Assembly (NCBI GenBank): GCA_025357545.1
Contig: JANXPB010000143.1
Location: 1 to 40,903 of the forward strand
Length of the DNA: 40,903 nucleotides
Direction of reading: 5' to 3'
Origin: Holophagaceae bacterium
GTDB taxonomy: Bacteria; Acidobacteriota; Holophagae; Holophagales; Holophagaceae
How positions within the stretch are numbered: position 1 is the stretch's first letter; each line of letters starts with the position of its first letter. The notes beneath the pieces are model-generated. The model had not been told where the DNA came from and ran no database searches. It saw only the letters and a list, made by a program, of their open reading frames with translations. The translations under genes were made by a program, and so were the position numbers. Below are positions 3,139-34,627 of this stretch, in pieces.

Positions 3139-4749
3139 TCACCGCCAGCTGGGCGAAATGGTTCCAAAGGCTGCCAGGATTTCTTCGGCGGCGCGCAGGC
3201 CATGGTCCTGGGCCTCTTCGAACAAGGCCAAGCCGCTGAGGTCGGTGTGCGCGAAATGGATGCCCTGGTGGGGCTCCTTGGCCCGGCGCAGGGCCTCGCT
3301 GAACAGGAAGTTGGGCCGGGGCTGGACCATGGCGTGGCCCCAGCGCATGATGTCCAGCCGCGCGATGTTCCGCTCCAGGTCCGGGTGGGCCTTGCGCAGG
3401 TCCTCCAGCACCAGGTTGGCGCAGGTCTGCCAGTCCATGTTCTGCAACCGCAGCCGCTCGGCGCGGTCGTCGGCGCCGGTGAAGGGGTAGTAGTAGGTCA
3501 GCACGGTGGGACCATGGTCGCGGTAGGACTGGTGGGTGGCTACGACGTAGCCCAGCCCCGCGCTGTCCCGCAGCACGTTGTCCCAGGCGAGCGCCATGCC
3601 CACCTCTTTGGGCCGCTCCCGCAGGGAGATGTTGGCCACCAACCAAGGCGCCACGTGGAAGGCGCTGATGCCTTCCGGCCTTTCGGTCCAGAGGGTCGGG
3701 ATGATGTGTTGGGCCAGGTGCTGCGGCCCCGCGAATATCACCCGCTTGGCCTTCCAGCCCAGGGCCTTGCCGGCCTTGACGTCGAAGGCGCTCACCTGGA
3801 TGGTTTCGGGGGACACGCGCAGGATCTGGCTCACGGCGATGCCGGTACGGAGGCGGGGCTGGCAGGCCTTCGCGAGGTGGTCAATGATGGCGCCATTGCC
3901 TTCGGGCCACGCGATGATGGGCCGACTCTCCTCGCCCGGATTGAGTTTCCGGGCGGCGAAATAGAAGATTCCTGCCCAGGCCGAAGTGGTGGCCAGCCGC
4001 GTTCCGTAGTCGTCCCGGCAGGCATAGTCCAGCAGCCAGCGCAGGCGCTCGGAGGTGAGCCCCTTCTTGTCGAGCCATTGCTGGAAGCTCTGGCGGTCGA
4101 GGGCCTGGGGCTCGGGCGCGTCGCTGCACTTCGAGCGCGGGATGGTGAAGGCGCGGCGGCCCTCCCGGTCCCGCCAGGCCACCCAGACATCCACCTCCGC
4201 AAAGAAGAGCCGGTACTGGCGCTCGTCTTCGGCGGAGGCCCCGGCCCGCAGGTAGAGACCCTCCCACCACTGCCCGGAGGCGTAGACGCGCTCCTCGGGA
4301 GCCCGCACCAGGGCTTCCTCTGCGAAGACCGGGTCGCCCTGTTCCGTGAAGGCTTCCACGGCGCCCATCTCCTTCAGCAGCTTCACCAGGGCCCGGTTTT
4401 CACGGTTGGGCGCCGGCACGTAGTGGGCGCCCCAGGGGAAGGCGCTGATGCCGTTGCGCCCGGACCGCGAGGTGCCGCCCACCTGGGGCTCCAGCTCCAC
4501 CAGCTGGTAGTTCTTGAAGCCCTGGCCTTCGAAGCGCCAGGCGGCGCTCAGGCCCGCGGCACCGCCGCCCACGATGACGACGTCCACATCCTCGAACTGC
4601 GTGGGCTGGGGCAGCTGGATGTCCCGCACCCGGTGGCCCAGTTCCAGGGAGGGGCCGACGATCTCACCGCCAAAGCGCCGGCCCCGCCGCAGCCGGTCGC
4701 AGCCAAGGCCCAGGGCGGCGGTTCCGGCGAGAAAATGCCTGCGCTTCAC
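3139..4749 (-). CDS. Tat-exported FAD-dependent amine oxidase/phytoene desaturase-like oxidoreductase
   Basis: 536 residues. The N terminus MKRRHFLAGTAALGLGC has twin arginines (R3, R4) before a hydrophobic stretch, and Cys17 could make it a lipoprotein, although the lipobox is imperfect. This points to folded export by Tat. A Rossmann dinucleotide site VVIVGGGAAGLSAAW (GGGAAG at 61-66) is followed by an acidic residue in LVELEPQVGGTSRSG, the classic FAD-binding pattern of the flavin-containing amine oxidase/desaturase superfamily. The start is a GTG 16 bp downstream of the spermidine-synthase-like gene. Its neighbours suggest that the substrate is a polyamine or related amine made by that enzyme; this is inference. 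A Tat substrate in this window is notable because the local tatA carries a nonsense codon. Confidence 0.8.
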   Translation of the reverse strand: MKRRHFLAGTAALGLGCDRLRRGRRFGGEIVGPSLELGHRVRDIQLPQPTQFEDVDVVIVGGGAAGLSAAWRFEGQGFKNYQLVELEPQVGGTSRSGRNGISAFPWGAHYVPAPNRENRALVKLLKEMGAVEAFTEQGDPVFAEEALVRAPEERVYASGQWWEGLYLRAGASAEDERQYRLFFAEVDVWVAWRDREGRRAFTIPRSKCSDAPEPQALDRQSFQQWLDKKGLTSERLRWLLDYACRDDYGTRLATTSAWAGIFYFAARKLNPGEESRPIIAWPEGNGAIIDHLAKACQPRLRTGIAVSQILRVSPETIQVSAFDVKAGKALGWKAKRVIFAGPQHLAQHIIPTLWTERPEGISAFHVAPWLVANISLRERPKEVGMALAWDNVLRDSAGLGYVVATHQSYRDHGPTVLTYYYPFTGADDRAERLRLQNMDWQTCANLVLEDLRKAHPDLERNIARLDIMRWGHAMVQPRPNFLFSEALRRAKEPHQGIHFAHTDLSGLALFEEAQDHGLRAAEEILAAFGTISPSWR

Positions 4750-33112: not shown

Positions 33113-33964
33113 TCAGCTGCCGTCGCCTTCAGCAGGCGGCTCATCCACCATTGCTTTGGGTTTCCTGGGCTCGGCGGCCCAGGCCACCGCCACCGAGATG
33201 AAGTAGAGGCCCAGCAGCACCACGCTGAAGAAGACTGTGGTGAGCACCACGTCGCCCGGAGTGAAGAAGGCGCTGAAAATGAGGATCACGATGGTCGCGT
33301 GGCGCCAGTAGCGGATCATCCAGCGGGCCGTGACGATGCGGAAGCGCGCCAGGAAGTAGAACAGCACCGGCAGCTCGAACATGATGCCGGTGATGAGCAC
33401 CGTGCTGATGAACAGGTCCAGGTAATCCGCCACGTGCAGGTTGGCCCGCAGCCCAGCGGCGGCGGCCTCCTGGAACAGGATGTCGCCCAGGAACTTGAAG
33501 GCCTGGAAATAGGCGAAGGTGGCGCCGCCGATGAAACAGCCGCTGGTGGCCACCACGAAGGGAATGGCCAGGCGCTTCTCGCGGTCGTAAAGGCCCGGCC
33601 GGATGAAGGCCCACAGCTGATAGAACAGGAAAGGCGCCGCCAGGAAGGCCGCGGCCCAGAGCGCGAGCCGCATCAAGGAGATGAAGGGCTCCGTCAGGTC
33701 CGTGAAGGCGAAGGGAGAGTTCGGGCCCACCAGCTCCGCAGCCGGCCGGTGCATCTGTTTGGCCATGGCATCGAGAAACGGCTTCTGGGCCCACTCCAGC
33801 AGCTTGAAGCGCAGCGGCGGAATGTCGTGGTAGCCAAAGGGGAAGCCGTAGGTGAAGGCGAAAGCGGCGATTACGATGATGAGGGACCGCACGATGCGCA
33901 CCCGCAATTCCTGCAGGTGTTCCCAGAAACTCATCTGGTTGGGCGGGGTTTCCGGCAGGGGCAT
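33113..33964 (-). CDS. tatC: Sec-independent translocase subunit TatC
   Basis: 283 residues with six transmembrane helices. TatC binds twin-arginine signal peptides and nucleates the TatA pore. The N-terminal MSFWEHLQELRVRIVRSL contains the conserved E-L-R of the signal-peptide site. The first periplasmic loop is long (GYHDIPPLRFKLLEW...VGPNSPFAF), followed by EPFISLMRLALWAA. The segments FLFYQLWAFIRPGLYDREKR, FIGGATFAYF and GIMFELPVLFYFLARF are typical. Length is slightly above the E. coli form because of the loop and a polar C terminus. It is 93 bp downstream of the interrupted tatA. Confidence 0.95.
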   Translation of the reverse strand: MPLPETPPNQMSFWEHLQELRVRIVRSLIIVIAAFAFTYGFPFGYHDIPPLRFKLLEWAQKPFLDAMAKQMHRPAAELVGPNSPFAFTDLTEPFISLMRLALWAAAFLAAPFLFYQLWAFIRPGLYDREKRLAIPFVVATSGCFIGGATFAYFQAFKFLGDILFQEAAAAGLRANLHVADYLDLFISTVLITGIMFELPVLFYFLARFRIVTARWMIRYWRHATIVILIFSAFFTPGDVVLTTVFFSVVLLGLYFISVAVAWAAEPRKPKAMVDEPPAEGDGS

Positions 33965-34057: not shown

Positions 34058-34237
34058 CTATTTCTTTTCCGAGGTGACGTCTTCCTTCACGGAGTCCGTC
34101 AGCTCCTTGCTGGCCTTCTTGAATTCCTGGATGCCTTTCCCCAGACTCTTGCCCAGTTCGGGCAGGCGCGAGGGGCCAAAGAAAATCAGCAGCGCGAGGC
34201 CGATGAGGAGCATTTACGTGAGACCGAGATTGCCCAT
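34058..34237 (-). pseudogene. tatA: tatA with an in-frame TAA at codon 8
   Basis: The minus-strand ATG at 34237, with a GGAGG Shine-Dalgarno 5 nt upstream, begins MGNLGLT and is followed at once by TAA (34216-34214). The frame then continues [20 protein letters not shown] and [15 protein letters not shown] to a TAG at 34058, 59 sense or nonsense codons in all. This is a full TatA: one transmembrane helix, the F-G-P hinge and an amphipathic helix. TatA normally carries a polar residue (often Glu or Gln) at position 8, so GAA to TAA by a single substitution is the simplest origin. Re-initiation at the ATG just after the stop (34213) would give 51 residues lacking the polar residue and any Shine-Dalgarno. 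A sequencing error is possible. Confidence 0.85.
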
Positions 34238-34273
34238 GAGAGCCTCCGATTCGATTAGATGTCGATTGCGGGA

Positions 34274-34627
34274 TTAAGTTGAAGATCGCAGATCCGCGAG
34301 CGAAATGCCGGCAGGCAAGGGGATCGCCATGAGCAGCAGGGCCTGCCCGTGGGTCTTTCCCTGGGCGTCGGTCTTGACGCTTTCGCTGCCGCCGCCGCCG
34401 AGGGAATCATGCAGCAGGAAGTTGAGGGCGCGCAAGTTGGGCACCTCAAAACGCTCCACTTCGCCGAAACAGATCTGGCTGAAGTGGCGTTTCACCCGTT
34501 CGGCCGTGACGGTCTCCCGGAGGAGCCGGTAACCGGCGTCGGTGTAGGCGATGAGCCCGACATTGGACCCGTCGCCCTTGTCGCCGGAGCGCGCATGGGC
34601 GATCTGTTCAAGGAGGACACTGCTCAT
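34274..34627 (-). CDS. AtuA-related small protein
   Basis: 117 residues from the ATG at 34627 (MSSVLLEQIAHARSGDKGDG). The start IAHARSGDKGDGSNVGLIAY, the middle LTAERVKRHF-like segment (TVTAERVKRHFSQICFG) and the end VPNLRALNFLLHDSLGGGG with GKTHGQALL are the signature of the stand-alone C-terminal AtuA-related domain. Full-length AtuA belongs to acyclic terpene/isovalerate catabolism. No N-terminal AtuA partner is in the window, and the function of the stand-alone form is unknown. The ATG overlaps the TGA of ugd by 4 nt, and the interrupted tatA follows 36 bp later. Confidence 0.8.
   Translation of the reverse strand: MSSVLLEQIAHARSGDKGDGSNVGLIAYTDAGYRLLRETVTAERVKRHFSQICFGEVERFEVPNLRALNFLLHDSLGGGGSESVKTDAQGKTHGQALLLMAIPLPAGISLADLRSST

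Follow-up and report, generated by a model that had tools for sequence, protein, structure and literature searches.

A probable private one-base nonsense codon at position 8 of the only tatA in a Holophagaceae draft genome

In the draft genome of a Holophagaceae bacterium, the only tatA is interrupted at codon 8 by TAA. Comparison with related genes makes it very probable that this stop is a private, isolated, one-base nonsense change (GAA to TAA), neither recoded nor conserved. There is about an even chance that the base at codon 8 was miscalled in the draft, and an appreciable one, though short of even, that the sampled strain acquired it by a very recent mutation; most likely, the normal tatA of the species encodes Glu at this codon. 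No new mechanism is required by the data. Two observations count against the reading as a private, isolated change: the stop strikes the single residue whose essential role is known and has a start codon right after it, and a second stop at the same codon is found in another genome, G077.

The interrupted tatA frame and the Tat genes of the genome

The source genome, 95.6% complete, is a draft of 3.27 Mb made up of 239 contigs, and the window, meaning the whole stretch of 40,903 nucleotides analysed, is one of these (C12). The tatA frame lies on the minus strand (34237..34058) and comprises 59 codons and a TAG, broken at codon 8. Read on that strand, it starts ATG GGC AAT CTC GGT CTC ACG TAA ATG CTC, with the TAA at 34216..34214 (tta on the plus strand), where relatives nearly always have Glu, encoded by GAA or GAG. 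The initial annotation had reported a TAA at codon 8 (34214-34216), and its coordinates and description proved correct when the frame was re-read. On the sequence, a chance open frame is excluded by the match to the PF02416 profile in spite of the one internal TAA (E 2.5e-17), together with the tatC directly downstream; the frame is to be read as a genuine gene and its codon-8 stop as a single event.

Coding is intact on both sides of the stop. Upstream, a seven-codon leader ORF, MGNLGLT, is left (34217..34237, minus). Downstream is an ORF of 51 residues (34058..34213, minus), whose ATG (34213..34211) abuts the stop (TAAATG), as the initial annotation had it, and is followed by 50 more codons to the TAG at 34060-34058. 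This ORF matches PF02416 at E 4.9e-17 (profile positions 7-48), keeping the transmembrane and amphipathic helices of TatA without the N-terminal tail and the polar residue. A Shine-Dalgarno sequence, GGAGG, is present 5 nt ahead of the first ATG (34243..34247, minus). Its duplex, computed against an assumed 16S tail, has an energy of -9.5 kcal/mol, whereas the ATG past the stop reaches only -2.9 and has no comparable site; the description of the rest of tatA as intact and preceded by a strong Shine-Dalgarno thus stands. Compared with the TatA of single-TatA (TatA-basal) systems of PF02416, the gene shares the FG hinge, the amphipathic helix and the synteny with tatC, and is near-identical to its congeners. 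Unlike them, it is without Glu8 and its N-terminus is interrupted in the deposited sequence: where a TatA has a polar residue at position 8 within an intact N-terminus, there is TAA. The strand of tatA also carries, immediately upstream of it, a short ORF (34274..34627, minus) that has an AtuA ferredoxin-like domain and ends in TAA, a rare stop here. At the end of the contig (40692..40903), a GRGCGPGLWAGA-like translation is repeated, suggesting that the assembly broke at a tandem repeat.

A PF02416 profile search of the draft genome for TatA/B/E homologues returned this tatA alone. A second copy elsewhere, which the initial annotation had offered as one explanation, was not found in the draft even at E<=10, the three extra matches being weak fragments, and none was found in viral contigs. 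Adjoining tatA is an intact tatC of 283 aa (33113..33964, minus; PF00902, E 9.3e-53), the only TatC of the genome. The residues of TatC that form the polar (docking) site show no private change, being the same as in the congeners, and a compensating TatC change for the lost polar residue of TatA is thereby ruled out at these residues. A probable Tat precursor is encoded in the window, namely a flavin amine oxidoreductase with a twin-arginine-like N-terminus (VKRRHFLAGTAALGLG; 3139..4749, minus), and at least four other precursors have N-termini of the twin-arginine type (MSSRRQFLQTLGAG, MARPLDRRTFLEAG, MTLTRRTFLELTA and MSLERRQFLAALG). The statement that TatC and a Tat substrate are encoded nearby was therefore right for TatC and right that a precursor exists in the window, but this gene lies about 30 kb off. 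With the single tatC intact and twin-arginine precursors present, Tat is expected to be in use.

Codon 8 in relatives and the age of the stop

Each of the four congeners has a single TatA, in which codon 8 is GAA. This comparison, which the initial annotation had proposed, indicates that the stop is not shared within the genus; it also agrees with the proposed origin by a single G-to-T change from GAA, since over the first 11 codons the gene differs from that of G004 by one base. The claim that the stop strikes a critical polar codon is likewise upheld. Across the TatA proteins of Holophagaceae, codon 8 mostly encodes Glu, and one protein has Glu at position 7. In one TatA type of the family, which has a shorter start, the polar position is occupied by His (MNLGPGHLLLIG; L061, L074, L078 and L082-L084). 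Copy number varies: TatA genes number two to five in some related genera, and four or five paralogues occur in some Holophagaceae genomes (e.g., G025, G018 and G021), with one in the genus of the window.

In a survey of 77 Holophagaceae genomes in which TatA matches were listed with their stops, ten loci with flagged stops were opened (L032-L035 and L160-L165), and all of the stops were C-terminal gene ends except that of L161, in G077. In 396 Acidobacteriota genomes, no third stop besides those of this genome and G077 was present among the best matches listed for the first 44 codons. Thus, a recoded stop, which should be conserved at the same codon in relatives, was not found, all of the relatives read except G077 encoding an amino acid, and a conserved or recoded codon-8 stop is rejected on the family and Acidobacteriota comparisons.

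The exception, L161 (G077:C65:26571-26726, minus), is a TatA paralogue, MGNIGMT*ILLIG, with TAA at codon 8. G077 is a Geothrix-like draft that has another, intact TatA elsewhere, and no ATG follows the codon-8 stop of the paralogue. Its contig C97 agrees with a record labelled cov 2.08, that is, about 2x contig coverage. Ten of the first 44 tatA codons could become a stop in one step, so that a coincidence at the same codon has a chance of only about 1 in 10. Given this figure, the coverage label and the lack of an ATG after the stop, G077 is weak as independent support for a mechanism.

The remainder of tatA bears on the age of the stop. Relative to the sister genome G001, 20 codons differ synonymously and, besides the stop, one amino acid differs, E52D, in which G001 is the odd one. 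Among nine genomes compared, this tatA has no private residue apart from the stop, and the amino acids of the seven leader codons are kept. The excess of synonymous differences, with no private amino-acid change, means that decay of tatA has not begun, and the stop is therefore either very recent or not real. If real, it would have arisen long after the lineage separated from that of G001.

Assembly quality and the explanations of the stop

The quality of the assembly was examined in the window and in a wider sample. In the window, all genes with homologues in congeners are intact, and the stops flagged in them sit upstream of their ORF starts. In 259,588 sampled bases of the assembly, 60 genes (63,219 bases) matched relatives and no clear second internal stop was present; the flagged stops were in N-terminal extensions or shadow frames, L173 (alignment position 12) being judged by appearance only. 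One apparent double frameshift was seen, at L176. Private substitutions over 1,929 codons showed no excess at codon positions 1 and 2 (0.40, against 0.36 in G001), nor any excess of G>T/C>A. A generally bad assembly is ruled out by these results, and the sound frames elsewhere lower, without removing, the chance of a single miscalled base in tatA.

A consensus or assembly error, in which the organism carries an ordinary Glu codon that the draft gives incorrectly, is nevertheless an explanation we would put at evens. Spurious internal stops are common in assemblies of low to moderate coverage (PMC11017572), and the other codon-8 stop, in G077, comes from an assembly with a contig at the low coverage label given above. 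The present stop is similar to the spurious internal-stop pseudogenes described there in being a lone substitution in a conserved gene that is otherwise without decay, and in being absent from nearly all relatives. It is unlike them in that such stops are not generally over-represented in the part of this assembly that was sampled, none occurring in the rest of the window or clearly in the 60 genes, and the private substitutions at positions 1 and 2 and of the G>T type are not in surplus. If the base is correct, it may be a nonsense allele of very recent origin by which TatA is lost or nearly so in the strain and Tat export is broken, which is possible but rather improbable. The sole TatA of the genome would be hit at a residue whose replacement by alanine abolishes or cripples transport: in Escherichia coli, TatA Q8A abolishes detectable export of CueO, with slight residual function (PMC5201420), and in pea, Tha4 E10A abolishes transport (PMC12609122). 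However, tatC and the Tat precursors are intact and tatA itself is undecayed, so that any loss of TatA would be very young.

Given a similarly modest probability is a real stop rescued by termination-reinitiation, with UAA AUG coupling the leader to a usefully active 51-residue TatA whose free N-terminus would stand in for the polar residue that caps the 12-residue hydrophobic core. To be efficient in E. coli, reinitiation requires an overlap or a very short distance; it falls as the distance grows but persists at +2 nt (with a loss of 5-70%), and needs no more than 15 nt of upstream gene (PMC10666635). The ATG abutting the stop is within this coupling distance, as in termination-reinitiation coupled pairs, although the distance here is 0 instead of the usual overlap of -4 or -1, the upstream ORF has only seven codons, the second ribosome site is weak, and the likeness is one of sequence. 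The remaining core is exactly 12 residues; a 12-residue hydrophobic stretch, normally bounded by the polar residue, is a feature of TatA, and its length is said to matter (PMC13186574). Gly or Ser is sometimes seen at position 8 of TatA-basal proteins, but docking on TatC requires the polar residue (PMC5201420), and the docking residues of TatC have no private change that might make up for its loss. Readthrough of the stop or reassignment of TAA, giving full-length TatA, is highly improbable. Although TAA is the rarest stop here (two of 30 genes), two intact genes of the window end in it, the congeners encode Glu with GAA, nearly all relatives code for an amino acid at codon 8, and a search of the window for a suppressor tRNA yielded only one tRNA-Ala; the suggestion of readthrough in the initial annotation thus found no support. 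Equally remote is a second TatA in sequence absent from the draft: the assembly is incomplete and some related genera have several copies, but each of the four congeners has exactly one.

Consequences for Tat transport

If the base is real, ribosomes would load at the strong GGAGG, make MGNLGLT and terminate at UAA, and a fraction of them would restart at the abutting AUG to give the 51-residue TatA. This product would keep the 12-residue hydrophobic core, the FG hinge and the amphipathic helix, and would be without the periplasmic tail and the polar residue that docks on TatC. Tat transport would therefore be weak or absent; judging from the published substitutions, little activity is to be expected. 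That the stop is both real and tolerated, with a Tat system that has no other TatA sustained by a 51-residue form restarted at UAAAUG, lacking the polar residue regarded as indispensable and capping its core with a free N-terminus, is quite unlikely.

The case is a reminder that, when a draft genome shows a conspicuous stop in a core gene, the reads should be consulted before the stop is interpreted. Should the stop be real and tolerated, the codon-8 stop of G077 would hint at a recurrent site of loss, and nature would have supplied an experiment on whether single-TatA systems require the polar residue, or can work with just a short hydrophobic core that has a free N-terminus.
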